From contig JAKSNY010000016.1 in the NCBI GenBank assembly GCA_024399495.1, positions 1 through 42,776 of the forward strand: 42,776 nt of DNA, in the 5' to 3' direction. Position numbers and translations under genes: made by a program. Below, piece by piece: positions 23,241 to 42,776 of this stretch. The DNA comes from Paludibacteraceae bacterium. Lineage in GTDB: Bacteria; Bacteroidota; Bacteroidia; Bacteroidales; Paludibacteraceae. The stretch's first letter is position 1. Every line of letters begins with the position of its first letter. The notes under the pieces were generated by a model. That model did not search any database. It saw only the letters and a program-made list of their open reading frames with translations, and was not told the origin of the DNA.

Positions 23241-25409
<2,169 letters not shown>

Positions 25410-26831: not shown

Positions 26832-28652
26832 TTAATATTCAATTGCAATCATATCCCAATACTTTAGAGAAGGTAGTGTGAATGATACCTTACCATTCTC
26901 GTATGTATATGCAAGTTTTTGTGAAACACCACTCTTATAATCAGGTGATGCAAACCAAACCTCTGTAGGCTGTGAAGTTACATCTATTGAGACTTGCAGG
27001 TTTTGTATCAGTTTAGGTTCTGTCTGAGTTCCGTCTGTATCGCACCAATCCAGATGGTTTGCCCCTATATAGTTCAGCAGATGTATATAGTCTGTTGTTC
27101 CCACTTTTTTACCTTGAACCGCAATTTGATCTTTGGCGGTTACAGGCCATTGTTGGAATTTTATACCGTCTGCTGACGTGCTGATACCGGTTGAAGCAAT
27201 CCATTCGCCGTCACCACGTAAAGCGTTTTCATAGCCTACAAGAAAATCGTAGTAGTTGATTATGGCATGCTTAAGGTCTGCCTCCATTTGCAAATTTCCG
27301 TTAGGGAAATATTCTGTGCATAGCATGTGCTCTCCCATTTGGAGTATTGTGCCTCCAAATGCCTGTGCTACCGCTGTTGTCATAAGAATACCCGGAGTAT
27401 TGAAATATCCTGGAGAACCTCCCTTATTGTAGTTCAAATATGCGGCAAGAACAGTTGATTTTTTGTTCTTTGATATCTTGTCGTTTTTTTGAATTACTTC
27501 AACTAATTCAGAATATGTAGTACCGTCGTTATAAGGCCAAACCTCTGTGTATAGGAAATCAACTATAATTTCGTCTCCTATTTTTGCTTGGGCAATACCT
27601 TGTTGTTGTCCATATTGAGACACAGCGTTCATAACAAGGCTTTTGTCAGGTTGGGAATCTTTCATCTTAATAATGAAATTCTTAAAGCCTTTGTACATAG
27701 CACTTGATGTTATCTTAGTTCCCTTTCCATCTGCTTTCTTTGGATATCCGTAAATCTCACCAAGATTTCCAAGTTGGTCTATCTGGTATCCGTCAAAAGG
27801 ATAGGCGGCGTACATTGCGTCCATTTGGTTTGCAAGATAACTCTGCCACTCCACGTTGTCAGGATTCACAATGTAGATTGAACTTTTGAAAGGAGCGGAT
27901 AGTTTATGTACCTTTTTATCTGTCAATGCATCGTCTTTAAATAGATACCACTCTTCTTGTACTCCGTCTTGTGCGGCATTCTGCAATGCACCGTAGCATA
28001 AGTCGTAAGATAGTGTTTTCATACCAGCGGCGTGAGCCTTGTTCAAGTAAGAAAGAACAGTGGTTCTCCAGTTCTCACGACCTGCAATATCGTGCCATAA
28101 ATCCGCTGGTGTGCCGTCTTCTTTGGTTGCCAACGGCTTATGGTGGTCACAAATCCAATCCTGGAACTGAAGATAGTTTATATGGTATCTTCTTAGATTG
28201 TACATCACATTCTCTATTTCACTCTCGCTAACATTGGTGTAGTAAGATAGGAATCCGTTGCGGACAAACTTACGTGGGTCTGAAGATACATCTATGGCAA
28301 TACTTGCAAATACAGAGTCTTTGCCGTTAATAACCTTGTGTAGGTCTGCAAGATAACCTGTCATATCTGTAGATGGAACAGCCCAAGACCACTCCAAACC
28401 GGATACAGGTATATCTACAAGTAACTCATTCAAATGTTTGATTCTCACCATAAAGTCTGATTGACCCTCTATAGCATGTTTCAGCTTAAAGTTTACAACA
28501 TCGCCAGGCTTATAGCATGACTTATCTGTGTTTACATCTATCTTTATGTATGCGTCACCGTACGTAATAGGATCGTGTGACGGATCGTAATGCTTACACG
28601 ATGCTAACAATAGAACCGTTAGCACAATTGAAATTATATTAAACATTCTCAT
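26832..28652 (-). CDS. GH66 endodextranase-like lipoprotein
   Basis: A 606-residue outer-surface enzyme expected to cleave alpha-1,6-glucan internally. The lipobox LLLASC (C19) predicts a lipoprotein. An N-terminal beta-sandwich (about 30-125) precedes the TIM barrel, which shows LQFQDWICDHHKP (161-173), LSYDLCYGA (214-222), the nucleophile D292 in FDGYQIDQLG and the acid/base E370 in FLYTEVWPYND. Both match GH66, which contains dextranases and cycloisomaltooligosaccharide glucanotransferases. The transferases carry an extra inserted CBM35, and no such insert is visible, so plain dextranase is favoured. It follows the SusE-like gene by 18 bases. Confidence 0.9.
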   Translation of the reverse strand: MRMFNIISIVLTVLLLASCKHYDPSHDPITYGDAYIKIDVNTDKSCYKPGDVVNFKLKHAIEGQSDFMVRIKHLNELLVDIPVSGLEWSWAVPSTDMTGYLADLHKVINGKDSVFASIAIDVSSDPRKFVRNGFLSYYTNVSESEIENVMYNLRRYHINYLQFQDWICDHHKPLATKEDGTPADLWHDIAGRENWRTTVLSYLNKAHAAGMKTLSYDLCYGALQNAAQDGVQEEWYLFKDDALTDKKVHKLSAPFKSSIYIVNPDNVEWQSYLANQMDAMYAAYPFDGYQIDQLGNLGEIYGYPKKADGKGTKITSSAMYKGFKNFIIKMKDSQPDKSLVMNAVSQYGQQQGIAQAKIGDEIIVDFLYTEVWPYNDGTTYSELVEVIQKNDKISKNKKSTVLAAYLNYNKGGSPGYFNTPGILMTTAVAQAFGGTILQMGEHMLCTEYFPNGNLQMEADLKHAIINYYDFLVGYENALRGDGEWIASTGISTSADGIKFQQWPVTAKDQIAVQGKKVGTTDYIHLLNYIGANHLDWCDTDGTQTEPKLIQNLQVSIDVTSQPTEVWFASPDYKSGVSQKLAYTYENGKVSFTLPSLKYWDMIAIEY

Positions 28653-28670: not shown

Positions 28671-30137
28671 TTATTTTTCCTCAAATCTTACTTTTAATTG
28701 ATTTAAATCAACGGTGACATTATAATCACCACCACTGGTGACTGACCACTTTTTATCACCATCATCACCACTGTGACCGGAACCTATATCCATTCCTGTC
28801 TCACCTTTTGCTACAGTGCCGTTTGACGGAGCGAATATGAACAGTCCGAACCAGTCTCCAAGTTGAAGCGGGAACTTAAGTGTTCCATTTGTCAGCTTGC
28901 CTGAGAATAAGAATACACCATCTTCCACTTTCTTTAATTTTACAGTGTGCTCCTCATCTATCCACCAACCGCTTGGTGTGGCGTCACCACAAATCCATAC
29001 ATTCTCAATAGGACTGAATGTTATTGTCAGGGTGTTGTCTATTGTGTTTGCAAGCAGTGTATATACGGCAGTGTTTGTGACTGTCCAACCTTTGTTTTCA
29101 CCGCAATCACCGTCATACTTCTGCATTTGATCATCAGAAGCACCCTTTCCATACGAGTATGTAATGTCTGTACTCTTGCTGGAATCAGTAAAGTAATAAT
29201 TACCTGGTTTAAGTACGCCCTCGTACTTAAGCACACCGTATTTGTAGTCGAGTTGCATTTGTTGTACAGACGGAGCGGCTGAACCGGCAATGTACAGATA
29301 TTGGGCCTCTCTTAACAGTGTAATGTCGCAAGTAAGTTTTTTCCAGTTCATCTTAACTACGTACTCTCCAGGAACAGGTATGTTCCATTTGTAGTCAGGT
29401 ACATTATATATTGCTTCTCCGTCTTTTTCACCTGTCTTGTACATATACACCATTTTGGTGTCATCGTTTTCAGACTCTTTTACAAAAGCCTCGTCAAATC
29501 CGTCTCTTGTGGTAAGGAATTTCATCTCTCCTGCATTTAACATACCGGTGTAAATAAATCCACCTTCAGGATCTTCTTCATCTTTTTGCATAACTTGTGC
29601 TGTTTTGGCATTCCAAGAGTCTTTAGCCAAGGTAGCGGGACCAATCATAAACATTTGCTGAAAGTTGTTCTCATAGATTGCCACCTTAAACTTAATAACA
29701 GGTGAAACTTGTTGCGGTGCGGCATTTTGGGCTACAGTTGCTGTAACTCTTGCCTCATACTCCATCAACTCTCCGTAATGGTCTGTAAGGTCAGGCCACA
29801 ACTCTTTTAGTTTTGCATTTAATGCACCATGCTTGAGTTTAAGGCTGCGGTCAGTAACTGACCCTATATTGTTTTTGTAACCTCCCTTAAAATCGTTTCC
29901 GGCACGGTCAAATTCGAAGTAATATGAAATGGCATTGCCTGTTTTGCCGTTGGTTCCGCTTGTCCAAGAGAACACTAATGCATCTTTTTGAGATACGCCT
30001 TGATTCAGGACAATCTCACCAGGAGTTACGGTCAGAGCCAAAGGCTCTCCATCTGTAACTTTTATCTCTTCCTTTTTGCAGGATGTAAATACCGCTAAGG
30101 CAAGACATATAATTGTTATAAATTTCAGTTTTTTCAT
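28671..30137 (-). CDS. SusE-like surface glycan-binding lipoprotein
   Basis: A 488-residue lipoprotein (lipobox VFTSC, C20) that would hold oligosaccharide at the cell surface beside SusCD. The N-terminal domain LALTVTPGEIVLNQG...ALVFSWTSG is the SusE-type Ig domain. Three binding modules follow, each with a (I/L)-x-G-x-A start: MFMIGPATLAKDSWN near 160, YLYIAGSAAPSVQQMQ near 286 and NVWICGDATPSGWWID near 378. The same module appears in the two genes at 36414-38644. The aromatic residues after the A-(T/A) turn are the usual sugar platform. The sugar specificity cannot be read directly. Confidence 0.85.
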   Translation of the reverse strand: MKKLKFITIICLALAVFTSCKKEEIKVTDGEPLALTVTPGEIVLNQGVSQKDALVFSWTSGTNGKTGNAISYYFEFDRAGNDFKGGYKNNIGSVTDRSLKLKHGALNAKLKELWPDLTDHYGELMEYEARVTATVAQNAAPQQVSPVIKFKVAIYENNFQQMFMIGPATLAKDSWNAKTAQVMQKDEEDPEGGFIYTGMLNAGEMKFLTTRDGFDEAFVKESENDDTKMVYMYKTGEKDGEAIYNVPDYKWNIPVPGEYVVKMNWKKLTCDITLLREAQYLYIAGSAAPSVQQMQLDYKYGVLKYEGVLKPGNYYFTDSSKSTDITYSYGKGASDDQMQKYDGDCGENKGWTVTNTAVYTLLANTIDNTLTITFSPIENVWICGDATPSGWWIDEEHTVKLKKVEDGVFLFSGKLTNGTLKFPLQLGDWFGLFIFAPSNGTVAKGETGMDIGSGHSGDDGDKKWSVTSGGDYNVTVDLNQLKVRFEEK

Positions 30138-30156: not shown

Positions 30157-31632
30157 TTAATATCCTGGATTTTGCACCAATTTTGGATTGGATTGCATCT
30201 CAAGAAGCGGAATAGGGAATAATAGGTTCTTGTCAGAGAAATTTGTTTTTCCTATTGACATAAAGAACTTTTTAGCATAATCAGGACGTCTTATAAGGTC
30301 AAACCAACGATGTCCCTCAAAAGCAAGTTCCATTCTACGCTCTTTATATATTATGTCTCTCATGTCATTAATATCCTTGCCTATAGTGGCTGGAAGACCG
30401 GAACGTTTCCTTACTTCGTTAAGTGGTATAGCCGCCTCATCCAACATTCCTAACTCATTCAATGCCTCCGCTTTCATCAAAAGCACCTCGGCATATCTTG
30501 TAACCACCCAGTTTGCAGGGCTTGCATCATAGTCCGGTGCAATAGACATTGGAACAAGGAACTTTCTTAAGTTGTATGTGGTTGTAGAGTATTCAGGGTT
30601 ATAGAACTTGCCGTCAAACATTGGGCAACCAGCGTAAAGTATGGTTTTGTCTTTACGGGTATCCCCAGGTTCATACTGCTGTACAAACTCATGTGTAGGT
30701 TGGTTCCAGCCATAACCACCGGCAACCATACCAGAGTTTCTTGGTCCTGTATATGTGCTAAGCCATGAAGCCTGATTCTCGTTCCACGTAAAGTTATTTG
30801 ATGTCTTACCATAATATTGAACCTCAAAAATGGATTCAATACCGTTTTTCTTTAGAGGGTTGAAGTTATCGCTATAGTCAGCGTTAAGTTGGTAACCATA
30901 ATTTCCTATCTCATCACATAGTCTGACTACCTCCTCGTAATTCTCGCCTTTAGTAATATATACTTTTGCCAATTCAGCCATTGCAGCCTCTTTAGTGGCT
31001 CTGCCTAAATCTGTGGCAGAGTAGGTTGATTTTAGAGGCAAACGTACTATGGCATCTTTTAAGTCTTCAATAATCTGAGCGTATATCTGTCCAGGCTCCG
31101 CTTGCGGTGCACCTTCTTCCGATAGGCTCTCTTGTGGTTCAAGGTTTAGAGGTACGCGTCCAAACAGTCTTACAAGAATAAAATAGTAGTGAGCGCGAAG
31201 GAATTTAACCTCACCAATACAGCGGTTTCTTAAACTCTCGTCCATCTTTATTGTGTTGATATACTTAAGAACCATATTGCAGCGTAGAATACCTGGAGCC
31301 GGACCTCTCCATAGGTCAACTACACCAAAATTATTTGAATCTGCTGTAAAGTTTGCCAAATCCACTGTCTCTATACCGTCATTGCCACCACCAGCACCAA
31401 CTACACTGTTATTTGCCACAATGTCAAGTGTCCAAATACGCATATTGTATAACTTTGGCCACTGAAGCGGCTGATATGCACCATTGACTGCGGCAATAAC
31501 CTCATCTGAATTGCTATAGCCATTTGCAACAACCTCATTGTAAGGCTCTCTGTCAAGGTATTTGCAAGAACTTAATGCACAAATGGCAAATATTACTGCC
31601 AAACTGCTTGTTAATCTATATAATGTTTTCAT
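30157..31632 (-). CDS. susD: SusD-family glycan-binding outer-membrane lipoprotein
   Basis: A 491-residue lipoprotein (lipobox ALSSC, C23) that forms the lid of the SusCD importer. It has the RagB/SusD fold with N-terminal TPR helices (EVIAAVNGAYQPLQWPKLY, IGEVKFLRAHYYFILVRLFG) and the very conserved C-terminal block YAEVLLMKAEALNELG, LNEVRKRSGLP, IIYKERRMELAFEGHRWFDLIR near 394-450. It lies 15 bases after susC and 19 before the SusE-like gene. Glycan-binding residues cannot be assigned without a structure. Confidence 0.96.
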   Translation of the reverse strand: MKTLYRLTSSLAVIFAICALSSCKYLDREPYNEVVANGYSNSDEVIAAVNGAYQPLQWPKLYNMRIWTLDIVANNSVVGAGGGNDGIETVDLANFTADSNNFGVVDLWRGPAPGILRCNMVLKYINTIKMDESLRNRCIGEVKFLRAHYYFILVRLFGRVPLNLEPQESLSEEGAPQAEPGQIYAQIIEDLKDAIVRLPLKSTYSATDLGRATKEAAMAELAKVYITKGENYEEVVRLCDEIGNYGYQLNADYSDNFNPLKKNGIESIFEVQYYGKTSNNFTWNENQASWLSTYTGPRNSGMVAGGYGWNQPTHEFVQQYEPGDTRKDKTILYAGCPMFDGKFYNPEYSTTTYNLRKFLVPMSIAPDYDASPANWVVTRYAEVLLMKAEALNELGMLDEAAIPLNEVRKRSGLPATIGKDINDMRDIIYKERRMELAFEGHRWFDLIRRPDYAKKFFMSIGKTNFSDKNLLFPIPLLEMQSNPKLVQNPGY

Positions 31633-31647
31633 AGTCGTATAATTATA

Positions 31648-34600
31648 TTAGAATGTTATGGATAGTCCTGCTGTTATAGTCATTGATAACGGATAAACAT
31701 TGTCATCTTTCGCTTTTCCGCCAATTTCAGGGTCTATGCCTTTATATTTTGTCAATGTAAACAGGTTCTGTCCTGAAACATAAACTCTTACATTGCTCAT
31801 AGCGGCTTTCTTTGTAAGACGCTGAGGTATTGTATAACCTAATGTCAAGCTCTTTAATCTTAAGTAAGAGCCGTCTTCAATAAATCTGTCAGACACTCTG
31901 GAGTTTTGGTTAGGATCGTCTTTAACCGCTCTTGGCATTGTAGTTGAAGGATTGCCCTCTCTCCAACGGTCAAGTACGCTGGTAACTTGGTTTTGAGCGA
32001 CTTTCATTGCCTCCAATTCTCTTCTTGTGGCATTAAATATCTTGTTTCCTGCAACTCCTTGGAAGTATAACTCAATATCAAATCCTTTTATAGTGAATTT
32101 GTTATTAAGAGAGAATGTCCATGTAGGAGTAGGGGAGCCAAGGAATGTACGGTCTTTCTCATCAATCACACCGTCACTGTTCAAATCCTTGAACTTTATA
32201 TCACCCGGCTGTGTGCTATTGTACTTGCTGCTACCTCTTTTCTGGATTGCGTGATTGTCAATCTCCTCTTGTGATTGGAATATTCCTTCACAAACATATC
32301 CGTAGAAAGAGTAGATAGGGTGACCCACTGAATTTATGTTATATGTGTCGTTTCCATCATTGTCAAAAATGTCTTTTCCGTTAGGAAGAGCCTTAATCTC
32401 ATTGTGGTTATAGGCAAAGTTCAATGTGGTTGTCCAGTTGAATCCGTCGCCTTGATTTACAAAGTTGAATGATGTGATACCAACCTCAACACCGGCATTA
32501 CGTACTGTACCTGTGTTTACACGCGGCACATCTTCGTCAGAATAACCGGAACTGATTAGTACATTGGCATTGGTAAGCATATCTTTTGTATCCTTTATAT
32601 AACCATCAACAGAGAACATTAACCTATCTTTTGCCATCTTCATATCAAGACCTATGTTATATGATACAACAGACTCCCATGTTACTTCAGGATTAGGCAT
32701 TTTACGAGGATAAAGAATTGGCACAATAGTTCCGTTAAATACATATTGTCCTACACTCAGATAAGGGTATCCCTCGTATTCACCAACGTTAGCCTGATTT
32801 CCTGCCATACCAAATCCAAAACGGATTTTCATATCGCTTACCACATCGTTTACAGGGAAGAAATGCTCCTTGCTTGGTCTCCATGCCACAGATACAGAAG
32901 GGAATGTACCCCAACGGTGTCCTTTTGAGAATCTTGAAGAACCGTCTTCACGTACGGTTGCTGTAATGTAGTATCTCTCGTCATAAACGTAGTTTGCTCT
33001 TGCCATAAATGATAGCAACGCCCATTCTGTTGTGTTTCCGCCAAGAGTTTTTGTCTCTTCAAGTGTACCGTTAGATAATTGGCGCGCTGAAGGTGTCAGG
33101 AATCCAGAGATGCTACCTTCCATAAATTTTTCATGTTTTGATTGCATAGACACACCAATCATAGCGTTTACGGCGTGTTTCTCTTTGAATGTCTTTGTAA
33201 AGGTAAGGGTGTTATCCCAAGATACGGTCAATTTCTTGTTAAACTTGTTTTTAGCATACGATTCCGGTTGCGGAATAGGTTCCCAATCATACTTTGGAGC
33301 CCATTCGTCATCGTCCCAGAACAGAGCCTCAACACCAAGCATACTCTTGAATACTAATGGCTCCCACGGAGTGATCTCCATAAATACATTGCCAAGGAAG
33401 TTATAACCTTTTGTCGTATTTTTTTTCTCATTCAGCTTGCCCACAGGGTTTGGTTGGTCGCCCACGTACATTGCAAGTCCGTTTGGACCAGCCCAAGTTC
33501 CGTCTGCGTGATACATCTCTTGTGTAGGCAGTGCCAAAAAGGAGTTCTTTAGATTCCCTACCCAGTCACCAGAGTTTTTTATATCGTGGTTAAACGTAAG
33601 ATTTGTACCTATACCTAACCATTTGAACATCTGTGCGTTTACATTGGCTTTAAACGTAAAACGCTCGTATTTAGTGGTTTGTATAACGCCTTTTTGGTTA
33701 AGATAAGAACCTGAAAGATAGTAGTTAACCTTGTCTGTGCCACCGGAGAAATTCACGGCGTAATTCTGAATCTGACCAAGTTGAGTCATGTTTTTGAACC
33801 AATCTGTGGAGTTGGTCAGAGCGGTTGGGTCAACAAATTCAGGATTCTGACGTTCTCCGCCTGCCTTCATCATCTCGTTATGCAGGGACGCAAATTGAGA
33901 AGAATTTAGCAAAGGTAGTGTGTTGGTTATTTTCTCTATACCGTATGATGCCTTTAACTCAACGTGGTTATTGTTGTCTTTATTACCTTTTTTAGTGGTG
34001 ATAATTACAACACCGTATGCACCGCGTGAACCGTAAATTGCTGTTGCAGAGGCATCTTTTAACACGTCAACTGTGGCTATATCGTCCATATTCAACGCAT
34101 TCAACCCCATATCGGTAGGAATTCCGTCTATTACAACAAGAGGGTTGCTTCCGTTAATTGAGCCCACACCACGAATCTGCATACTTACGTTGTCGCCTGG
34201 TGAACCTTTTGATGTTATCTGTAGTCCAGGTGCCTTACCCGATAGGGCTTCACCTATATTAATGGACTGGTGTTTGCCCAAATCTTCTGACGTTACTTGT
34301 GCTATTGCACCTGTAAGGTCGCTCTTTTTTTGTACTCCGTAGCCTATAGCCACAAATTCTTCAAGTTGTTTGGAATCCTCTTCCATTGAAATCTTAAGAG
34401 GTTGGTCCTTAGTTGCTTTTACTTCAACTTCCCTGTATCCAAGGTAAGTTAGTTTAAGAACGGAATTCGCCGCTTTGGATTCAATGGTGAAATTTCCGTC
34501 AAAATCTGTGATTGTGCCAGTTCCTGTCTCCTTTATTATAACGTTTACACCAATCATCGGTTCTCCGGATTGATCCACAACGTTACCTGTAAAGTCGGCG

Positions 34601-34659
34601 TAGATTGAACTTGTCAACATCACTGCACTGCAAAATAGTATGCACTTCTTGTTAAACAT
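31648..34659 (-). CDS. susC: SusC-family TonB-dependent outer-membrane transporter
   Basis: A 1003-residue TonB-dependent importer of oligosaccharides. After the signal peptide (about 1-21) comes a carboxypeptidase-regulatory-like domain (GNVVDQSGEPMIGVNVII to ~93). Next are the linker EEFVAIGYGVQKK typical of SusC, the plug (GKAPGLQITSKGSPGD, IRGVGSINGSNPLVVIDGIP, IYGSRGAYGVVIITTKKG to ~225), then the 22-strand barrel ending LSITF with a terminal phenylalanine. It starts the structural part of the operon, 75 bases downstream of the regulator. No TAnnTTTG box is seen in that gap, which fits an activator-dependent promoter. Confidence 0.97.
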   Translation of the reverse strand: MFNKKCILFCSAVMLTSSIYADFTGNVVDQSGEPMIGVNVIIKETGTGTITDFDGNFTIESKAANSVLKLTYLGYREVEVKATKDQPLKISMEEDSKQLEEFVAIGYGVQKKSDLTGAIAQVTSEDLGKHQSINIGEALSGKAPGLQITSKGSPGDNVSMQIRGVGSINGSNPLVVIDGIPTDMGLNALNMDDIATVDVLKDASATAIYGSRGAYGVVIITTKKGNKDNNNHVELKASYGIEKITNTLPLLNSSQFASLHNEMMKAGGERQNPEFVDPTALTNSTDWFKNMTQLGQIQNYAVNFSGGTDKVNYYLSGSYLNQKGVIQTTKYERFTFKANVNAQMFKWLGIGTNLTFNHDIKNSGDWVGNLKNSFLALPTQEMYHADGTWAGPNGLAMYVGDQPNPVGKLNEKKNTTKGYNFLGNVFMEITPWEPLVFKSMLGVEALFWDDDEWAPKYDWEPIPQPESYAKNKFNKKLTVSWDNTLTFTKTFKEKHAVNAMIGVSMQSKHEKFMEGSISGFLTPSARQLSNGTLEETKTLGGNTTEWALLSFMARANYVYDERYYITATVREDGSSRFSKGHRWGTFPSVSVAWRPSKEHFFPVNDVVSDMKIRFGFGMAGNQANVGEYEGYPYLSVGQYVFNGTIVPILYPRKMPNPEVTWESVVSYNIGLDMKMAKDRLMFSVDGYIKDTKDMLTNANVLISSGYSDEDVPRVNTGTVRNAGVEVGITSFNFVNQGDGFNWTTTLNFAYNHNEIKALPNGKDIFDNDGNDTYNINSVGHPIYSFYGYVCEGIFQSQEEIDNHAIQKRGSSKYNSTQPGDIKFKDLNSDGVIDEKDRTFLGSPTPTWTFSLNNKFTIKGFDIELYFQGVAGNKIFNATRRELEAMKVAQNQVTSVLDRWREGNPSTTMPRAVKDDPNQNSRVSDRFIEDGSYLRLKSLTLGYTIPQRLTKKAAMSNVRVYVSGQNLFTLTKYKGIDPEIGGKAKDDNVYPLSMTITAGLSITF

Positions 34660-34734: not shown

Positions 34735-36378
34735 TTACTTTATTTTCATAACCTCATCTTCAAAATGTTCTCTGTCTTTTATTGCATAATTTCTGTATCT
34801 CACTCTGTAATTATAAATAGTGGATAGTGAATATTTCAAAAATATTGAAATTTGAACACTATCGGTCATTCCCAATCTTATCAGTGCAAATATTCTCAAC
34901 GGTGTATTAAGACGGTTAGGCTCATCTGGTGGTACAACCCTTTTGTCCTCCTCTAATAAATCGTTGAATTGTGTTATGAAATTAGGGAATAGACTAAGGA
35001 ATATATTGTCAAAATTTTCGTAAAAATCATCTGTTACGTTCTCAATATTCAAATCTTCCACTAACTTGTTAAGTATTGCCTTCTGTTCAGGATTTGTCCT
35101 TGCCACAGACTGAATCTTGTTCTTAATGGTACATATTTGCTCCAAATAGGTAGATGATAGAGACATATACTGTGTCAGATATTTCATCTTCACCATAACG
35201 TTGAATTCAAGTTCGTTATTCAACAATGTGTATCGCTCATTGATTTCCTTAAGGTTGTTGTTTGTCTTAATTAGTTCCTGAGCGTATTTTTCTGTTTGTG
35301 CTTTCAGTTCCTTATTGCTTTTTAGTTGCTGCCATAACTGAATAATTAGAACTATCATAAAAAACAGAATGATTCCAATCATAAGTATGGTGACTATAAG
35401 CTGTACATTTCTTTTGTGCATTTGTTTTGCATACGCTTTTTGAACTATAGGAAAGGCGTACGCCACTTCTCTCTCCCTCATTCTGAAATGAGTTTTGTTT
35501 ACGTCGTCAATAGCACACGACAGATACATGTAAGACCTTTCAATGTCGTTATTTTTATAGAGCAATACAGCCAGTTCTTGCAAAGCACTATATTCCCTTA
35601 CGGCAAGCGGAATCTCGTACAGAGAAGCTTTTGCCAGCCAGTAAATCTCATTTATGGAGTCTCCTGAACAACGATATACATTAGCCATACAGTATGAGTA
35701 GATGGCTTTGTTGTGTTGAGATAGAGTGTTTATGTCTATTTTTTGCAAATCTGCCAAGGCTTCATTACACTTGTTGCTTTTGTAATGTATGTCTGAACGC
35801 ACTATCAGATATACAAACGACAATGTATCATATACAGATAATATGGAATCAGCATACCGTCTTGACATACTTCTGTAATAGTTCTTATAGTCTTTATCTA
35901 TGGAGTTGTTGTACATTACATCAAACAGGGTGTGCATAACGTGATAGTATTGTGGACGCACTATACTGTCAAGTTTGGTGGACGATGCGTATCCTAAAAG
36001 CTCTGCTGATTCCTTGAACATACCGGCAGAGCATAATCCTTCTGCATAATATATATTGGCTAACTGGATGTGCCAGTCCGGCTCAAGTTTTTCTGCCAAA
36101 TCCTTGCACTTTTTAGCGTAAGTGAGCATAGAATCCAAATTATATGTCTTGTACTCTTCTATAATGGATTGTAGTGCACTGAATTTGCTCTCCTTATCGC
36201 GGGCTGATTTATACTGAGCCTTCAGATAATTAAGGTGATTGTCTTTTTGGAAAAAATAGGTCTGTTTGTTGTTTACAACATGGTCAAGAGTGTCTAACAA
36301 TACATTATAATCCTGACTTGCCATTGATAATGACAATAGCAAGACAGGAATTATTGATATGTATTTTCTTATATGCAC
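34735..36378 (-). CDS. SusR-like membrane-bound transcriptional regulator (DUF6377 type)
   Basis: A 547-residue regulator. It has an N-terminal signal or anchor segment (1-20), a sensor region of helical TPR-like repeats (~25-320), one transmembrane helix (about 325-347, LIVTILMIGIILFFMIVLII), a coiled coil (350-400) and a C-terminal LuxR-type helix-turn-helix: LRIFALIRLGMTDSVQISIFLKYSLSTIYNYRVRYRNYA at 494-532. This arrangement, with sugar sensed outside the inner membrane and DNA bound inside, is that of SusR, the maltose-responsive activator of the starch locus, and its homologue in dextran loci. It most likely activates susC onward. Confidence 0.88.
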   Translation of the reverse strand: MHIRKYISIIPVLLLSLSMASQDYNVLLDTLDHVVNNKQTYFFQKDNHLNYLKAQYKSARDKESKFSALQSIIEEYKTYNLDSMLTYAKKCKDLAEKLEPDWHIQLANIYYAEGLCSAGMFKESAELLGYASSTKLDSIVRPQYYHVMHTLFDVMYNNSIDKDYKNYYRSMSRRYADSILSVYDTLSFVYLIVRSDIHYKSNKCNEALADLQKIDINTLSQHNKAIYSYCMANVYRCSGDSINEIYWLAKASLYEIPLAVREYSALQELAVLLYKNNDIERSYMYLSCAIDDVNKTHFRMREREVAYAFPIVQKAYAKQMHKRNVQLIVTILMIGIILFFMIVLIIQLWQQLKSNKELKAQTEKYAQELIKTNNNLKEINERYTLLNNELEFNVMVKMKYLTQYMSLSSTYLEQICTIKNKIQSVARTNPEQKAILNKLVEDLNIENVTDDFYENFDNIFLSLFPNFITQFNDLLEEDKRVVPPDEPNRLNTPLRIFALIRLGMTDSVQISIFLKYSLSTIYNYRVRYRNYAIKDREHFEDEVMKIK

Positions 36379-36413: not shown

Positions 36414-37703
36414 CTATTTTACAATCAATTTATAAGATTTTCCACCAATGGTAATCATATATAAACCAGACATCGGAACGTCTATTGTGGAATCTCCTGC
36501 TTCTAAAACGCCTTCGTTTATAACTTTAATGGCGTTCATCAATACGTAAGCCTGTTTGTTTGGTAGATTTGATATGCATATCTTATTTTTAGAACCCGAT
36601 ATTACAAATTCACTTTCAGGCTTGTTGTCTGATGTAGGCAGAGATGTGCCAACTTCCATATTGTTAAGATCAACATATACTGTCTTTTGTCCTGATGTAG
36701 AGAAATACCACTTGTTATCTGCTGTGCCGGCAGGCTCTGTTTCGTAAAGTTTCATCTTATAGGTCTGACCATCTTTCATTTCAACATTGCCCGATGCATC
36801 GGCTACGTATCCAGGCCACCAGTCCTTAGTCTGGCAGAACTTGAAATCATCATTTGCGTTAAAGTTTCCGGTGTATGTATATTTTTTCTCTCCAAGTGAG
36901 GTCATTTTCACATGTTTCCAATCACTGAACAATCCTACAATATACAAGTCTCCATCTTCTATTATACCACCACCATTCGTCACTTCCATTGTGCCTGTAT
37001 GTTTTGCCTCATCTAATGTTACAGTTATGGTGTAATTGCCTTCTGGCATTATAAATTTATAATCAGGAGCGGATTCACCATTTCTATATGCTAAGTTGTA
37101 TTTTTTGTTAAATTCAACTTGTTGATTTTCACTGGTTGCTACATAACATTTATCCCAGCTTCCACGTTTTGTCAGGAATTTTAATTCGCCATTTTTAAAA
37201 GAGCCGGTATAAGTATAGTCATTTTCATTGATTTCCATCTGGATGGCTTGGTCACCGCTCCATCCCACACTTGTTGCAGGTCCTATTAAATATAAAGAGG
37301 TGCTGGTAGGGTCGATAGGGTCGTCTCCACCTTGTCCTGGTGTGCCTGTAACAAGAAGTGTGTTATTTGTAACATCAAGTACAAGTGTGTATTCACCTGC
37401 GTCAAATGAAAATACGTTAGCGGAAGCGGTAGAAGAATACTTTACCGGCATACGCTTGTTTAGTTCCACTTTTTTAGAAGCTTCTGTAGCCACATAATAG
37501 GAGGCACTTTCGCTTTTCTCCGAAATAAAATTCAGTGTGCCCTTTTTTAACGTGCCGAACCAAGTGTAGGTACAACCGTCAGCGGTCATTTGAATGGCTT
37601 TGTCTATAGAGGTGCTACCAGTGGCGGAGCCAGTCATATACATAGCCGCACAAATGCATTGGCAGGAAATGATACTTAGAATAATTAATAGTGCCTTTTT
37701 CAT
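36414..37703 (-). CDS. Three-module SusE/F-type glycan-binding protein with T9SS type A tail
   Basis: A 429-residue exported protein made of three SusE/F-like binding modules (about 20-120, 136-243 and 252-352), each starting YMTGSAT, YLIGPAT or YIVGLFS and containing a (K/D)-W-x-x-x-Y-V-A type aromatic turn. The last ~65 residues (VISGSKNKICISNL to SGLYMITIGGKSYKLIVK) match the Por-secretion C-terminal sorting domain of T9SS type A cargo. The signal peptide is ambiguous: IISC at 11-14 resembles a lipobox but leaves an unusually short hydrophobic core, so ordinary cleavage near ICA-A is preferred. It is upstream of the SusR-like gene by 35 bases and may be co-transcribed. Export by T9SS would place it on or outside the surface, unlike lipoprotein SusE/F. 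Confidence 0.8.
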   Translation of the reverse strand: MKKALLIILSIISCQCICAAMYMTGSATGSTSIDKAIQMTADGCTYTWFGTLKKGTLNFISEKSESASYYVATEASKKVELNKRMPVKYSSTASANVFSFDAGEYTLVLDVTNNTLLVTGTPGQGGDDPIDPTSTSLYLIGPATSVGWSGDQAIQMEINENDYTYTGSFKNGELKFLTKRGSWDKCYVATSENQQVEFNKKYNLAYRNGESAPDYKFIMPEGNYTITVTLDEAKHTGTMEVTNGGGIIEDGDLYIVGLFSDWKHVKMTSLGEKKYTYTGNFNANDDFKFCQTKDWWPGYVADASGNVEMKDGQTYKMKLYETEPAGTADNKWYFSTSGQKTVYVDLNNMEVGTSLPTSDNKPESEFVISGSKNKICISNLPNKQAYVLMNAIKVINEGVLEAGDSTIDVPMSGLYMITIGGKSYKLIVK

Positions 37704-37774: not shown

Positions 37775-38644
37775 TTATTTTTCTTCGATTATCACACCGT
37801 TAAGGTTGCGAATATCTTTTTCTGTCTCAATAACATAACCATCCTTTGTAATAACTACACGGTTCTTAAAGCCTTGCTCCTCTGCAGGTGCGTTATCTGC
37901 AGTAGGCTCCTCGTCAATATAGACAATCATCTTGTTTGTGTCAAGGAAGATCTTATGAGAACCTTCCTCCTCAAAGAAGAATTTGTGGTCACGTGCTTCA
38001 TATATAGTAGGTAAGTAGATTGCTTTAACGGCTTCTCTTGGACGCATAGGAACGTTGCTTGTCTCATCTGCGGCAACTATGCCTGGCCACCATTCAACCG
38101 AATAACGGAACTTGAAGTCGTCATTTTTCAAGAAAAAACCTTCATAACTGTAGATGCCGTCACCCTCGTCAACCATCTCTTCTGGTTCCATCGAACCGCA
38201 AATCTCAGGAGCATTAGCAGGAAGTACAATTGGATCCGGAGTTCCAGTTATTGCCAATGTACCAGTATTATCTTCTGAACTCATAGTAAGAGTTAAAGAG
38301 TATGTACCAGCATAAATGTAGAACTTGAAATCTTCTGGTGCATCTGGATCCTTATCGTTCTCACCGTAAAGAACATCGTAAGTTTTGCCTGGCTCAACAA
38401 TTATGCCTGCTTTAACGGCAACTATACGTGGAAACCATTCACCTTGTACACAAGTGAACTTGAACTCACCGTTGGTGAACGTACCTGTGTAAGTAAATAC
38501 ATTGTTACCTTCTGCTGTCATAGGAACAGCGTCACCGGCGCTCCAACCAGCTGGTGTAGCCTGACCAATTAGGTAAACATTCTCAATAGCTGAAGCACTT
38601 AGTGCTGCAACTAAACCTAAAACAAGAAATGTAAACTTTCTCAT
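37775..38644 (-). CDS. Two-module SusE/F-type secreted glycan-binding protein
   Basis: A 289-residue exported protein. The signal peptide is MRKFTFLVLGLVAALSASA with a clear Ala-x-Ala end, and no lipobox. Module 1 (about 22-133) has VYLIGQATPAGWSAGDAVPM and NGEFKFTCVQGEWFPRIVA. Module 2 (about 145-245) has EICGSMEPEEM and DDFKFRYSVEWWPGIVAAD. The last ~30 residues (VVITKDGYVIETEKDIRNLNGVIIEEK, split around 262-289) resemble the first half of a T9SS type A sorting domain but stop early. It has a promoter 94 bases upstream with repeated CACTAC elements, and its own terminator. A binding role next to the dextran locus is inferred. Confidence 0.75.
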   Translation of the reverse strand: MRKFTFLVLGLVAALSASAIENVYLIGQATPAGWSAGDAVPMTAEGNNVFTYTGTFTNGEFKFTCVQGEWFPRIVAVKAGIIVEPGKTYDVLYGENDKDPDAPEDFKFYIYAGTYSLTLTMSSEDNTGTLAITGTPDPIVLPANAPEICGSMEPEEMVDEGDGIYSYEGFFLKNDDFKFRYSVEWWPGIVAADETSNVPMRPREAVKAIYLPTIYEARDHKFFFEEEGSHKIFLDTNKMIVYIDEEPTADNAPAEEQGFKNRVVITKDGYVIETEKDIRNLNGVIIEEK

Positions 38645-38737
38645 AATAATAAAAATTTAAAAAGTTAATAAATAATAAAAAAGGTTAAAACACTAAAAGT
38701 ACACAAGCGATGCGTTATCCGCACCAAAAGTGTAATG

Positions 38738-38745
38738 CAAAGTTA
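38738..38745 (-). promoter_or_regulatory. Promoter -7 box for the two-module gene
   Basis: Minus strand TAACTTTG matches TAnnTTTG. The leader to the start at 38644 is about 85 bases, longer than for most genes here. Confidence 0.65.
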
Positions 38746-38784
38746 TTCAAAAAATGCTGAAAAAAAAACATTTGATTCAAAAAA

Positions 38785-38878
38785 GTAGTGGTTTTTTATT
38801 ATAAAAATGTTATACAGTGTGCTGTGTCGCCTTTTACATGTGTTTCTTTTAAGTTAAAAAGTAGTGGAAAAGGTAGTG
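38785..38878 (-). promoter_or_regulatory. Three CACTAC-T-tract elements upstream of the two-module gene
   Basis: In the gene's sense the hexamer CACTAC occurs at 38785-38790, 38861-38866 and 38873-38878, each followed by C and/or a run of T. The first lies 39 bases upstream of the -7 box. The two distal copies are 12 bases apart. Otherwise the 306-base gap 38645-38950 holds only the promoter and a terminator. Confidence 0.6.
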
Positions 38879-38885
38879 AAAAAGA

Positions 38886-38915
38886 AAGAGGTTATCAACG
38901 CTTTGATAACCTCTT
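38886..38915 (-). terminator. Terminator of the small CTD-like gene
   Basis: AAGAGGTTATCAA (38886-38898) and its exact complement TTGATAACCTCTT (38903-38915) make a 13-bp stem with a CGCT loop, followed on the minus strand by TCTTTTTC. It lies 35 bases past the small gene's stop. Confidence 0.8.
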
Positions 38916-38950
38916 CCCCCCTTAAAAATACTGATGAAAACTAAAAACTC

Positions 38951-39235
38951 TCAAAAAACTGTGAAATATGTTAACTCAAAATCTTGATTGTGATATAAAA
39001 TTGCTGTGTAACGACCCTTATTCCAATTCTCCACATCCAATACAGCAGAATCTATTGATTCGTCAGAACTATAAACCAATTCTCCTGTTGATGAATACAC
39101 ATCAATTTTTGTTAAAGAACTGCTTGGAGACAATACTACAAATTTAGAATTTGTGCCAGACTGGTCTTCTGTTTTTTTTGCGTACATAATAAAAGGTAGT
39201 ACCGCTACGCATAATGCAATAAATAATTTTTTCAT
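38951..39235 (-). CDS. Small exported protein, isolated sorting-domain-like or DUF3244-like fold
   Basis: A 94-residue protein. I chose the start at 39235 (MKKLFIALCVAVLPFIMYA) because it gives a proper signal peptide and lies after the promoter at 39265-39272; the ATG at 39262 would precede the likely transcript start. The mature ~75 residues are almost entirely one beta fold: LTKIDVYSSTGELVYSSDES, then AVLDVENWNKGRYTAILYH and a final FELTYFTVF. That pattern (a strand with G-x-L-V, then W-x-x-G-x-Y) is what T9SS type A sorting domains and the periplasmic DUF3244 proteins share. It has no cargo part. Function is unknown. Confidence 0.65.
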   Translation of the reverse strand: MKKLFIALCVAVLPFIMYAKKTEDQSGTNSKFVVLSPSSSLTKIDVYSSTGELVYSSDESIDSAVLDVENWNKGRYTAILYHNQDFELTYFTVF

Positions 39236-39264
39236 ATCTGTTTTGATATTTGAGTTTGACACTG

Positions 39265-39272
39265 CAAATTTA
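39265..39272 (-). promoter_or_regulatory. Promoter -7 box for the small gene
   Basis: Minus strand TAAATTTG matches TAnnTTTG, 29 bases before the start at 39235. Confidence 0.6.
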
Positions 39273-39389
39273 ATAGGTATTTCTTTAATTTGTTCCTATT
39301 TTTTTAACCTTGGACGTACAATAGTAGTACGGAAAATGGTGCTAATGCTGTATAGATTGCCTTATTGCGGTTTTTTATTTTATTAAAAG

Positions 39390-39407
39390 GTAGTGTTGTT
39401 GGTAGTG
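39390..39407 (-). promoter_or_regulatory. Two CACTAC elements upstream of the small gene
   Basis: In the gene's sense CACTAC occurs at 39390-39395 and 39402-39407, again 12 bases apart. A one-base variant TACTAC lies at 39324-39329, 51 bases upstream of the -7 box. Confidence 0.5.
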
Positions 39408-39457
39408 CGGTTTTTATAAGAAAATAAATTGGATTAGTTTTTGTGATTTATAAAATC

Positions 39458-39529
39458 CACTACTTTTTTTTAACCGAAAAATGCTTTGGGATATGTTTAA
39501 ATGTGCATTATCACTATATTTTGCACTAC
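39458..39529 (+). promoter_or_regulatory. Two CACTAC-T-tract elements upstream of the giant plus-strand gene
   Basis: CACTAC followed by eight T is at 39458-39471, and CACTAC followed by seven T is at 39524-39536. The nearer one lies 41 bases upstream of the -7 box. The 384-base gap 39236-39619 contains no gene, only these elements, the pair for the small gene and two promoters. Confidence 0.6.
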
Positions 39530-39546
39530 TTTTTTTGTTTACAGCC

Positions 39547-39578
39547 GTTGTTTTTCTAATTTTTTTTGAATAAATTTG
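39547..39578 (+). promoter_or_regulatory. Promoter of the giant plus-strand gene
   Basis: A -33 GTTG (39547-39550) and a -7 TAAATTTG (39571-39578) are 20 bases apart, the typical spacing. The start codon is at 39620. Confidence 0.65.
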
Positions 39579-39619
39579 TTCGTTGTTTTATAATAATGTG
39601 TAAACCATTTTTTAATGCT

Positions 39620-42600
39620 ATGATAAAAAAAATTTCCTTTCTTACGCTGACGTTTGCGTTTTTTGCCTTAGGTTCGTTTGCTGAACCAGAGAAAGAAGTG
39701 TGCTGTGGTGATAAAAAAGATGGTCCTCTGTTCTGCGGGACTGATTTTAAACCCAAGCCGGGTGTCTCTAAGTCTGTGTATAGCTTAGACGATGTTATTT
39801 TTGACGACCCTATTTCAGGCCGTTTGTCTTTGGATGCTACATTTAATCCAAATCCTTCCACATTAAAGCCTGGAGAATATTACATAGACAAAGATGGTCT
39901 TCATTTGTGTGTGAATAGTAATAGTAAATTGTTCTCCTATTCTTTGTCAAATTTGAACGCAAATATTCATGGTGATTATTATTGGTGTCAGGCGGATATT
40001 AAGTTTGTTTCACAGGGCAATAAGCCAAAGTCTCATGTTTCACAATACAATTTGGAGTGTATAGGTTTGTGTGGTGATAGGACACAAGCCAATCCATATT
40101 GGTATTTTAATGATGACGGCTCCATTAGAATGCCATCTTATGACTATCCGTTTACTTTTCCATTTAAGGTAAAGAATACTGCAACAAGCGGTAATGTTGA
40201 ATATACTGTAACCGGATTGGATCCTAACGGTTCCGCAGTCTTTCAGTTCAAGTCTATTAAGATAAAGGGTTGTTTTGATGACAGAATTATAATTGAGAAT
40301 GGCACAAACTGCTGTAAGGGAGAAGAGAATACGTTTACATTGAAATCCATGAGCAAGGTAACATCATGCAAATGGTCTTATTCTGAGGATGGTAATAACT
40401 GGAAATCAATGGCTGGCACAGGTACTTCTGTCTCTAAAATCATTACGGAAGATAAAGTTTACATTAAGGCGGAATATGGTGGAAAAACTATAACTGCAGG
40501 TCCTATATCATCCATTATCTGCTGCTCTGCAGGCGGTGGTCAGTTGAATGTCTTAAAAGAGGACTTTACGCTGAAAAACAGTGCACAACCTTCTAATGGT
40601 GGACTTAGGGATGATTTTAAAAATTATTTTAATGGAAAGGTGACAACTGAATACAAATATCCTCCAAGTGTAAATGATAATCTTAACGATGGAGATTGTG
40701 CCGTTGTTGATAATGCCAGGGTAGGCGGTTATTGGAGCAATGAACCTATAGTCAAAGGACATACTGGTAATGGTAGTAGGGATGGATTTTTTCTTGTGAA
40801 TTGTGGATTCCCTAAAAGTAATATTTTTATTTACCATAGTAGTGAAGATACATTTTGTGAGAATACTTTGTATAATTTTTCTGCTTGGATAGCCAATCTA
40901 TGTACTAATCCTGGAGATGAGAGAGCTCCTATTAATGTAAAACTGGATGTTATAGGTAAAAATGCAAGTGGACAGGAAAAGACTTTGCTCTCCATTACCA
41001 CCGGATACTTGCCGACAGCCACCCCTTGGACCCAATTTAATGGTTCATTCAATAGTCTTGATTATACCGATATCTCGTTTAAGTTGGTAAACAATGTGGA
41101 TAAGGAGGATGTTGCAAGAGATTGGTGTCATGAAGGGAATCATTGTATAGATGAAAAAGGTTATGCTGGTAATGATGTGGGCTTGGATGATGTGCTGTTT
41201 ACTGCTTGTGCTCCGGCTATAGATATTATAGCAGGTGGAGATAAGTCTAAGGATATTGTTATCACAGACTGCTCTCTGACATCTATGGAGTTAAACGGCT
41301 CCACTGCAGTGGATTTGTCTGAATATTTTAAAACACCGTATTATCTTTTCCAACAATCAACAGATGGGAAAAACTGGACTGATATTGGTACGGCTGATAA
41401 AGCGGAGAAAAAAACAGTGCCGCTTGATAAAAAGACGCATAAGGATGGCGTATATTACAGAATCTGGGTGGGTGGCTCCGCTCAGGCTATAAAAAACGGA
41501 ATTGCAAAAGAGAAGGATCCTTCAGTAAAGTTAGGGTGTGCTGATCTTACTGCTGTATCTGAGCCACTACGCATCTCAATGAAGTGTGATTGCGAACCGT
41601 CTCCTGCACCGGTGGTTCACGAGTATAACGAGTGTCCGCTACCAACAGGCGGTACCGTAGATTTAACTACTTTGGTTGATAAGAACAAGGATAAACTGAC
41701 TTGGTACAAGACTGCAACCGGGACTGACGTTATTACAAACACAAAGATTGTGGTTGATGATACTAAAATAAATCCCACAGGTACTGCCTACTATGTAACT
41801 AATACGAAGCCTAATGACGCTAAAACAGAGTATTGTGAGAGTGAGCGTGTTAAGGTTACGGTTAAGGTTAAGGATGCCATAAAGTTCAGTGTGTCTCCTT
41901 TGGATATAACCACTTGTGTTTATGAGGGAGCGGATTTAAGTTATAAGGTTTCGGGGAAAACACCTGCTACAGCCGTGATAGAGTGGCAGGACGGTTCTGC
42001 TACCTCTCCAACAGGCGATACATATACGATAGACAAAAAGACAAGAGGTCAGGGTACTATTAAACTTGTTGCTACAGACCCTGCAAAAACCTCTTGTGAA
42101 TCTACGCAAAGCGTTACATACAACTTAACTGACGTTAATAAGTTTACGTTGAAGGCTGAACCTGCGTTTGTGTGTACAGGCAATCCTGTAAGCACCATTA
42201 CGGCAACCATAGTAAGCGGAGAGGGAGAATACACCTTATATAAAAAGGTGGGAAGCGGAGCGGAGACCAAGGTCACGAGCGGAGTGGTGACATCGGCGGA
42301 CAAGACCGTGACCTATGAGGATAAATCAGTAGCCACGGTAGCAACCACAGTTACTTATAGAATGGTGTTTGGTGAGGGCAAGTGTCAAGATGAGCATGAG
42401 ACACCTGTTGAGGTTGGCTCAGAGTTTGAGATACCTGTGGAGTCAAGTGCTGTCAGCCCTAAGGACAAGGTGTGCGTAGGTTCGCCTATAACTCTCAGCA
42501 CCACCTATACTCCAATAACTGGAGAGATACTTATATGGGAGGAGAATGGAGCGGAGATAGGCAGGGGCACCTCAGTGAGCATAGCGGCAGTCAATGCCAA

Positions 42601-42776
42601 GACCACATACACTGTAAAGAATCAGAACGGCACATGCGACGGCAATGGTTCAATAACAATAGATGTGGATAAGCCTATAAAGGCGGTGATAAAATCGTCA
42701 ACGCCAGCGGTTTGTGAGAATAATCCTGTTGACCTTATGGACACCAATACTGAGAAAGCGTCACAATACCAGTGGC
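39620..42776 (+). CDS. Giant secreted multi-domain protein (5' part, runs off the window)
   Basis: An open frame of 1052 codons with no stop before the window ends. An ATG at 39615 is followed by a stop after one codon, so the start is 39620. The signal peptide is MIKKISFLTLTFAFFALGSFA. The N-terminal third is cysteine-rich (VCCGDKKDGPLFCG, NCCKGEEN, SIICCSAGGG). Residues ~310-530 form a jelly-roll-like domain with YNFSAWIANLC and VGLDDVLFTACAP. This matches a domain in the 1862-residue protein (NFSAWFANAA, LLIDDIAFWSCPP), so the two are paralogues. Ig-like repeats then follow (ITLSTTYTP, TTYTVKNQNGTCDG). By analogy the missing C-terminus probably carries a T9SS sorting domain. Base composition rises sharply near the right edge. 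Confidence 0.82.
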   Translation, partial: MIKKISFLTLTFAFFALGSFAEPEKEVCCGDKKDGPLFCGTDFKPKPGVSKSVYSLDDVIFDDPISGRLSLDATFNPNPSTLKPGEYYIDKDGLHLCVNSNSKLFSYSLSNLNANIHGDYYWCQADIKFVSQGNKPKSHVSQYNLECIGLCGDRTQANPYWYFNDDGSIRMPSYDYPFTFPFKVKNTATSGNVEYTVTGLDPNGSAVFQFKSIKIKGCFDDRIIIENGTNCCKGEENTFTLKSMSKVTSCKWSYSEDGNNWKSMAGTGTSVSKIITEDKVYIKAEYGGKTITAGPISSIICCSAGGGQLNVLKEDFTLKNSAQPSNGGLRDDFKNYFNGKVTTEYKYPPSVNDNLNDGDCAVVDNARVGGYWSNEPIVKGHTGNGSRDGFFLVNCGFPKSNIFIYHSSEDTFCENTLYNFSAWIANLCTNPGDERAPINVKLDVIGKNASGQEKTLLSITTGYLPTATPWTQFNGSFNSLDYTDISFKLVNNVDKEDVARDWCHEGNHCIDEKGYAGNDVGLDDVLFTACAPAIDIIAGGDKSKDIVITDCSLTSMELNGSTAVDLSEYFKTPYYLFQQSTDGKNWTDIGTADKAEKKTVPLDKKTHKDGVYYRIWVGGSAQAIKNGIAKEKDPSVKLGCADLTAVSEPLRISMKCDCEPSPAPVVHEYNECPLPTGGTVDLTTLVDKNKDKLTWYKTATGTDVITNTKIVVDDTKINPTGTAYYVTNTKPNDAKTEYCESERVKVTVKVKDAIKFSVSPLDITTCVYEGADLSYKVSGKTPATAVIEWQDGSATSPTGDTYTIDKKTRGQGTIKLVATDPAKTSCESTQSVTYNLTDVNKFTLKAEPAFVCTGNPVSTITATIVSGEGEYTLYKKVGSGAETKVTSGVVTSADKTVTYEDKSVATVATTVTYRMVFGEGKCQDEHETPVEVGSEFEIPVESSAVSPKDKVCVGSPITLSTTYTPITGEILIWEENGAEIGRGTSVSIAAVNAKTTYTVKNQNGTCDGNGSITIDVDKPIKAVIKSSTPAVCENNPVDLMDTNTEKASQYQW

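Follow-up and report, generated by a model that had tools for sequence, protein, structure and literature searches.

A stretch of 42,776 nucleotides from a Paludibacteraceae bacterium (contig JAKSNY010000016.1 of assembly GCA_024399495.1, hereafter the window) carries CACTAC-T-tract boxes in the promoters of three genes for exported proteins: gene 1, which heads a polysaccharide utilization locus (PUL), a small gene and a giant gene. As predicted from their letters, spacing and gene context, these boxes are very probably the operator of a SusR-family regulator whose gene lies at 34735-36378. The activator, which an earlier note on this DNA had called unknown, has a named candidate because a SusR-family gene lies in the run headed by gene 1 and because boxes of the same kind stand beside susR in other genera. 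The other part of that proposal, one activator-type element common to three exported-protein promoters, is supported. SusR is a founding regulator of glycan use in Bacteroidota, and the locus supplies a probable SusR operator whose letters, register and distance to the promoter element are exactly defined. An operator of the SusR kind is already known; its reach to peptide clusters would be new.

The boxes and their register

The promoter elements in the window are as follows.

38873-38878, minus strand: box A', CACTAC, gene 1 promoter, 12 bp upstream of box A
38861-38866, minus strand: distal box A (CACTACTTTTT), gene 1 promoter, 76 bp from box B
38785-38790, minus strand: proximal box B (CACTACTTTTTT), gene 1 promoter
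38738-38745, minus strand: TAnnTTTG (-7 type), putative gene 1/PUL promoter by its consensus
39402-39407, minus strand: box A', CACTAC, small gene, 12 bp upstream of box A
39390-39395, minus strand: distal box A (CACTACCTTTT), small gene, 66 bp from box B
39324-39329, minus strand: proximal box B, variant TACTAC, small gene
39265-39272, minus strand: TAnnTTTG, small gene
39458-39463, plus strand: distal box A (CACTACTTTTT), giant gene, 66 bp from box B
39512-39517, plus strand: CACTAT tandem variant, giant gene, 12 bp upstream of the proximal box
39524-39529, plus strand: proximal box B (CACTACTTTTT), giant gene
39571-39578, plus strand: TAnnTTTG, giant gene

The seven CACTAC copies and the TACTAC variant have the positions and senses that the earlier note had given. 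Its distances from the end of the hexamer to TAnnTTTG (39 bases at gene 1 and 41 at the giant gene) are correct, and the copies that it had paired at 12 bases in two promoters are real in both cases; once the CACTAT of the giant gene (39512-39517) is counted, the 12-bp tandem occurs in each of the three promoters. The long register between distal and proximal boxes was absent from that note and is added here: it measures 76 bp at gene 1, 66 bp at the giant gene and 66 bp at the small gene. TAnnTTTG follows the start of the proximal hexamer by 45-47 bp at gene 1 and the giant gene and by 57 bp at the small gene (46, 48 and 58 bp for gene 1, giant gene and small gene, respectively, when counted from the start of the 12-bp proximal box). 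The tandem copies allow more than one register in the same promoter, and pairs at 88, 54 and 78 bp can also be read; the 66/76-bp register is preferred because of the spacings found in relatives.

In the gene-free stretches 38645-38950 and 39236-39619, CACTAC occurs seven times, against a mean of 0.19 and a maximum of 3 in dinucleotide shuffles, none of 5000 reaching seven; the hand estimate of about 0.2 made earlier agrees with this mean. Six of the seven copies fit the element CACTACNTTTT. Over the whole window, 26 copies stand against 19.2 expected, and 26 was reached in 6 of 100 shuffles, so that the hexamer is ordinary there and the signal lies in its clustering only. It could be argued that A/T-rich intergenic DNA with repeated hexamers arose by chance and serves no regulator, which would fit the ordinary frequency over the window and the lack of genome-wide enrichment of the single element. 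This is extremely unlikely, given the shuffles, the four exact sites with box pair and TAnnTTTG against no reversed control (see below), and the preferred spacings that recur in other genera; in our view, the recurrence beside susR has already refuted it.

Recurrence beside susR in other genera

Outside the window, box pairs accompany susR in further genera, Bacteroides and Flavobacterium among them. A first search for relatives with the SusR protein of the window alone gave none, and an alignment-based search then gave at least 594. The comparison covered 96 SusR loci, namely 80 from named genomes (the best 80 of at least 594) and 16 from kin, some with partial susR. When the best 13-bp repeat at a spacing of 30-110 bp was sought without regard to its letters in 42 SusC promoters on the SusR-locus contigs, it was spaced by 65-67 or 75-78 bp in 21 of them, where about 4 of 42 would be expected if all spacings were equally likely. 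The letters of these repeats were often, not always, CACTAC.

A search by letters covered 545 upstream regions (window plus the 96 loci). It gave 24 same-strand YACTAC pairs at spacings of 15-140 bp, with 19 in the range of 64-79 bp, against 2 in total and none at 64-79 bp in the reversed control. When the five pairs of the window are removed (four of them at 64-79 bp), 15 of 19 are in this range, namely at 65-68 and 77-78 bp. With the window likewise excluded, a box pair scoring at least 15 was found in 24 of 137 promoters adjoining susR. The figure was 3 of 322 among other promoters and 1 of 77 among those of susR itself; the wrong-spacing controls for these three groups gave 4, 1 and 1. The enrichment next to susR has a Fisher value of 7e-11, which is no true probability since the loci are related. 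In 14 of the 24 susR-adjacent promoters with a pair, TAnnTTTG follows the start of the 12-bp proximal box by 45-48 bp. Good examples are the loci L091, L113, L107 and L079, and L108 of Bacteroides xylanisolvens.

The 12-bp tandem was considered as a general SusR feature and rejected, as the relatives hold no ACTAC pair at 12 bp and three at 11 bp. A weak third half-site was seen 11 bp past the proximal box, with a mean box score of 5.5 versus 3.6 over 35 SusR-locus promoters.

A loose pair plus TAnnTTTG has a match in 45 of 247 genomes of the order, and reversed controls outnumber the matches (as judged from the table, unsummed); most of these matches are chance. The places outside this genome number 49, of which 30 were taken as loci. 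Seven of these have a T-tract at each of the two boxes, and 3 of the 7 have a susR gene no more than 1.5 kb away, versus 0 of the 23 that lack this pair of T-tracts, a split that was chosen after some loci had been viewed. Two loci (L191 and L193) had been chosen by eye for their T-tracts, and their susR neighbours are left out of these counts. A strict scan of 395 genomes of the phylum gave three matches in two genomes versus two reversed controls; the third match (G618), between a 552-aa gene and a SusC-like gene, is apparently the same record as L061 and hence non-independent.

Two single places from these scans may be mentioned. In genome G217 (L156/L194, G217:C105), a T-tract box pair 67 bp apart stands before a SusC gene; no susR was found in the 3.1-kb L156 locus, and this pair is possibly a target in trans. 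The match in G147 (L196) looks like a chance one inside a gene.

The SusR-family regulator

34735-36378, minus strand: SusR-family regulator, proposed binder of the boxes (NF058541 423 bits; DUF6377 207 bits)

The DUF6377 score is above the gathering score of 36.7. By hydropathy, the protein has a hydrophobic start, a periplasmic part and one transmembrane stretch at about 322-354, and alignment with relatives places the conserved C-terminal block of the family in it. This block would be a helix-turn-helix (HTH)-like domain, by analogy with the published description (PMC3878776; this and the other papers are cited from excerpts). The SusR HTH profile gave only weak matches to solved structures, the best at an E value of 0.2, to regulators of the HapR/SmcR type. 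With the SusR-family profiles and the SusR HTH profile, the regulator is the sole clear SusR of the assembly, next to two partial, sub-threshold matches on contigs C1 and C23. Since the genome assembly is 82.5% complete, a second SusR may exist.

Operators elsewhere in the genome and the peptide-export clusters

The single element CACTACNTTTT is not enriched in the genome (13 matches versus 10 reversed controls), and the box-pair pattern was used instead. Two other patterns of the pair were outnumbered by their reversed controls, namely CACTACN{54,76}ACTACNTTT (3 matches versus 5) and ACTACN{56,76}CACTAC without TAnnTTTG (17 versus 46). The full operator, ACTAC-N59-73-ACTAC-N38-42-TAnnTTTG, occurs at four sites in the assembly, those of gene 1 and the giant gene and two on other contigs, whereas the reversed controls gave none. 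The tandem ACTACN6CACTAC occurs exactly four times (gene 1, the small gene, and the same two sites on C10 and C14), a number that is unremarkable beside seven reversed controls; this pattern was written after its four promoters had been seen and adds only that the assembly has no other match. The two lists have three promoters in common and comprise five promoters together.

C10:19753-19881 (L060 7754-7882), minus strand: full SusR-type operator; a 63-aa double-glycine peptide and an export cluster of the bacteriocin type follow
C14:32347-32476 (L188 9848-9977), minus strand: full SusR-type operator before a 41-aa peptide cluster

In the C10 cluster, the 63-aa peptide, whose leader ends in YGG, is accompanied by a CAAX protease, a DUF6734/C39 protein, an HlyD-like protein and a C39-type ABC transporter for peptide cleavage and export (TIGR01193 547 bits, cut-off 523.85). 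The leader is of the kind labelled as bacteriocin-type; profile searches gave no family match for the peptide. The C14 cluster comprises the 41-aa peptide, two proteins with weak resemblances (one to carboxypeptidase-regulatory domains, the other to polyprenyl synthetases), an M50-like protease and a DUF6734 protein. The best NCBIfam matches of the protease, all below the cut-off, are daptide and epipeptide maturation proteases. An alpha-amylase with a type IX sorting tail was also noted about 2.5 kb from the C10 peptide promoter (L060 10335-13007, plus strand).

It might be that SusR also controls the C10 and C14 clusters in trans, so that dextran would trigger both feeding and peptide secretion. 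This reading is speculative, and we hold it to be only a little short of an even chance. Should the clusters share the regulon, a glycan sensor would tie feeding to peptide secretion, possibly against competitors, the antimicrobial role of the peptides being putative. A literature search found no report of a link between SusR or a PUL and peptide secretion, nor of these box letters, although a word search misses letters inside primers.

The alternative is that the two operators serve a SusR paralogue lost in an assembly gap, or a regulator with similar boxes, in which case the glycan-peptide link is false. The incomplete assembly would allow this. The likeness of the C10 and C14 promoters goes further than the boxes and extends, for example, to a run of C that follows the distal box; they may therefore count as one evolutionary event, and perhaps represent one duplicated promoter with a regulator of its own. 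Moreover, the 20 kb around two further DUF6734 genes, on C22, are free of such boxes. Against it stand the register of 76 and 77 bp, the 46 bp from proximal hexamer to TAnnTTTG and the 12-bp tandem, all as in the window, and the finding of no other SusR HTH in the assembly. A regulator of their own for these clusters is, on balance, a real but doubtful possibility, rather less than even.

A broader doubt concerns the window itself, where a separate activator unlinked to SusR (for example, one dedicated to secreted proteins) may bind the boxes and SusR be a bystander. The two operators of the peptide clusters, which lie on separate contigs and have no gene nearby that the SusR-family profiles detect, would suit such an activator, as would the incompleteness of the assembly. 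It is contradicted by the recurrence of the same box pairs beside susR in many genera, by the order-wide scan, which was blind to SusR and still placed T-tract loci near susR (3 of 7 versus 0 of 23), and by a register close to that of the published SusR repeats (PMC3878776, in excerpt). We therefore regard a bystander role of SusR as quite unlikely, and assignment of the window boxes to SusR is preferred.

Observations against the assignment

Several observations weigh against the assignment of the boxes to SusR. In the window, the small gene has its TAnnTTTG 10-12 bp further from the proximal hexamer than gene 1 and the giant gene do, and pairs scoring at least 14.5 are as frequent at wrong spacings as at right ones (five each), several of the wrong ones being due to the tandems. 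The regulator scores 423 bits against NF058541 over profile positions 3-515 of 515, which misses the curated cut-off of 480 bits, and its name is for this reason kept at SusR-family without asserting the equivalog.

Among relatives, 113 of the 137 susR-adjacent promoters have no clear CACTAC pair at the threshold; this count took genes on both sides of susR, and promoters of the starch-type SusR use other letters. The box consensus was derived from the window and its relatives, and related loci, such as those of Flavobacterium, are non-independent. Conservation in related strains, which the earlier note had made a test of its proposal, was not borne out: of 15 congeners, 14 lack the exact operator and one has a hit that is probably due to chance (8 reversed controls over 16 genomes). 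In the single congener seen to have a similar dextran PUL (G005, L046), the only pair is a degenerate one, TTCTAC/TACTAC at 66 bp; TAnnTTTG lies 47 bp from its box start, and its score is no better than that of chance pairs in the same locus.

The gene run and the proposed regulation

Gene 1 heads a close-packed run of minus-strand genes, from 38644 down to 21880, which ends with a major facilitator superfamily (MFS) transporter. In addition to the regulator, the genes of the run and their neighbours are as follows.

37775-38644, minus strand: gene 1, two-module SusE/SusF-like exported protein, head of the PUL run (PF16411 8e-13)
36414-37703, minus strand: 429-aa protein, related to SusF/SusE-type proteins of relatives (similar to PF16411-matching proteins in L046 and L191; no Pfam match itself)
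31648-34659, minus strand: SusC, TonB-linked outer-membrane importer (TIGR04056 920 bits)
30157-31632, minus strand: SusD (PF07980, PF14322)
28671-30137, minus strand: SusE (PF14292)
26832-28652, minus strand: GH66, dextranase family (PF13199 1e-165)
25437-26816, minus strand: Melibiase_C-bearing glycosidase (PF17801)
23241-25406, minus strand: GH97 family glycosidase (PF10566, PF14508, PF14509)
21880-23169, minus strand: MFS transporter, last of the close-packed run (PF07690)
38951-39235, minus strand: small exported protein with a weak type IX sorting tail (PF18962 22.1 bits, cut-off 27; TIGR04183 19.1 bits, cut-off 23; both below the cut-off)
39620-42775, plus strand: giant exported Ig-like protein, truncated by the contig end (PF19081 27.9 bits, cut-off 27.3)
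38879-38922, minus strand: strong hairpin followed by a T-rich stretch, between the end of the small gene and the gene 1 boxes (-23.6 kcal/mol, z -6.0)

The hairpin is probably the terminator of the small gene, although a scan for consensus terminators detected none. It directly abuts box A' of gene 1. Directly behind the MFS gene, and in the same direction, lies the gene of a 1862-aa protein (16221-21809, minus strand) with a CHU_C type IX signal of 30.1 bits (cut-off 27); no box pair was found upstream of it.

The earlier note had proposed a general regulon of type IX secretion cargo. The weak type IX tail of the small gene would agree with this, and so would the 456-aa gene behind the L191 operator, whose type IX tail is above the cut-off. 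On the other hand, the single element is not enriched in the genome, and the full operator is found at four places, two here and two at peptide clusters. Operator or tandem occurs at just three promoters of this locus and at the two peptide clusters, in a check that used exact patterns (five promoters, three at this locus) and did not search for degenerate copies elsewhere, and the CHU_C protein of the window has no box pair. A type IX cargo regulon is, accordingly, very unlikely.

The locus combines a SusC/SusD pair, the GH66 dextranase family, an alpha-glucosidase family and a SusR-type regulator; by this gene content it is a dextran-type PUL, for which induction by dextran and its use are predicted. 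The following scheme, including binding and activation by SusR at the boxes, the ligand, and co-transcription of the run, is what we infer. SusR would be an activator anchored in the membrane, with a periplasmic part as its sugar sensor; the sugar is here probably isomalto-oligosaccharides derived from dextran. In the ligand-bound state, two cytoplasmic DNA-binding domains may touch the distal and the proximal box on the same helix face, as a dimer, the boxes being separated by six or seven helix turns (66 or 76 bp). At gene 1 and the giant gene, TAnnTTTG follows 45-47 bp after the start of the proximal hexamer, a distance that would put the activator just upstream of RNA polymerase. SusR would thereby switch on gene 1 and the run behind it (429-aa protein, susR, susC, susD, susE, GH66, glycosidase, GH97 and MFS genes); since susR itself is within this run, positive feedback on susR is to be expected. 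The small gene with the type IX tail and the divergent giant Ig-like surface protein would be co-activated.

Comparison with known systems

The C10 cluster resembles double-glycine peptide bacteriocin export clusters in its YGG-leader peptide, cleavage/export ABC transporter, HlyD-like protein and CAAX protease. It differs from them by a SusR-type operator in the promoter and by a peptide that matched no family, whose antimicrobial activity is putative.

With regard to the locus as a whole, excerpts of PMC10316084 describe FjDexUL of Flavobacterium johnsoniae as eight genes, with a core of SusR, SusC, SusD, SusE, GH66 and GH97, induced by branched alpha-glucan. The window has these six of the eight FjDexUL genes. 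Unlike the window, FjDexUL has, in those excerpts, no SusE/F-like leading genes before susR, no giant gene and no described operator.

With regard to the operator, direct repeats with centres 67 or 77 bp apart were predicted for SusR-like regulators of Bacteroides (Ravcheev et al. 2013, PMC3878776). The repeats of the window, at 76, 66 and 66 bp, are one base short of these values, and gene 1, with the boxes upstream, heads a run that contains susR and susC. Maltose in the periplasm was also reported to be the signal to which SusR responds by activating its locus (PMC3878776, PMC11633381), while its binding sites are described in excerpts as only predicted and its mechanism as undefined (PMC3878776, PMC6874557).

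A close counterpart is the operator predicted for SusR2 (BT3091) in the dextran PUL of Bacteroides (PUL48). In B. thetaiotaomicron, BT3091 serves the dextran locus as its SusR-like regulator, and a published primer for its deletion contains CCACTACTTTTTT (PMC10936149), through which the box letters were compared. The dextran-induced promoter PDX is the intergenic stretch that lies between the stop of BT3091 and the start of BT3090 (PMC6874557); from the primer design and the B. xylanisolvens sequence, the primer would sit in this stretch and read towards BT3090. In B. xylanisolvens (L108), the region between susR and susC holds the CCACTACTTTTTT box and, at 77 bp from it, a CACTATATTTT box as its partner. 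The window differs from the SusR2 operator in that its boxes stand before the first gene of a susR-containing run, before two further exported-protein genes and, elsewhere in the genome, before two peptide clusters, and in the extra 12-bp tandem of its promoters.

The starch SusR operator (susA and susB types) shares the geometry in 6 of 9 promoters, where the repeats lie 66-67 bp apart and TAnnTTTG comes about 44-46 bp from the point at which the proximal box starts; these nine are GH97 or GH13-like promoters in L103, L104, L118, L120 and L128, and the search expression was made after the sequences had been viewed. Unlike the CACTAC of the window, the box letters of the starch system are YTTATATTT / CTTGTATTT, which suggests a spacing common to the SusR subfamilies and letters that differ between them.
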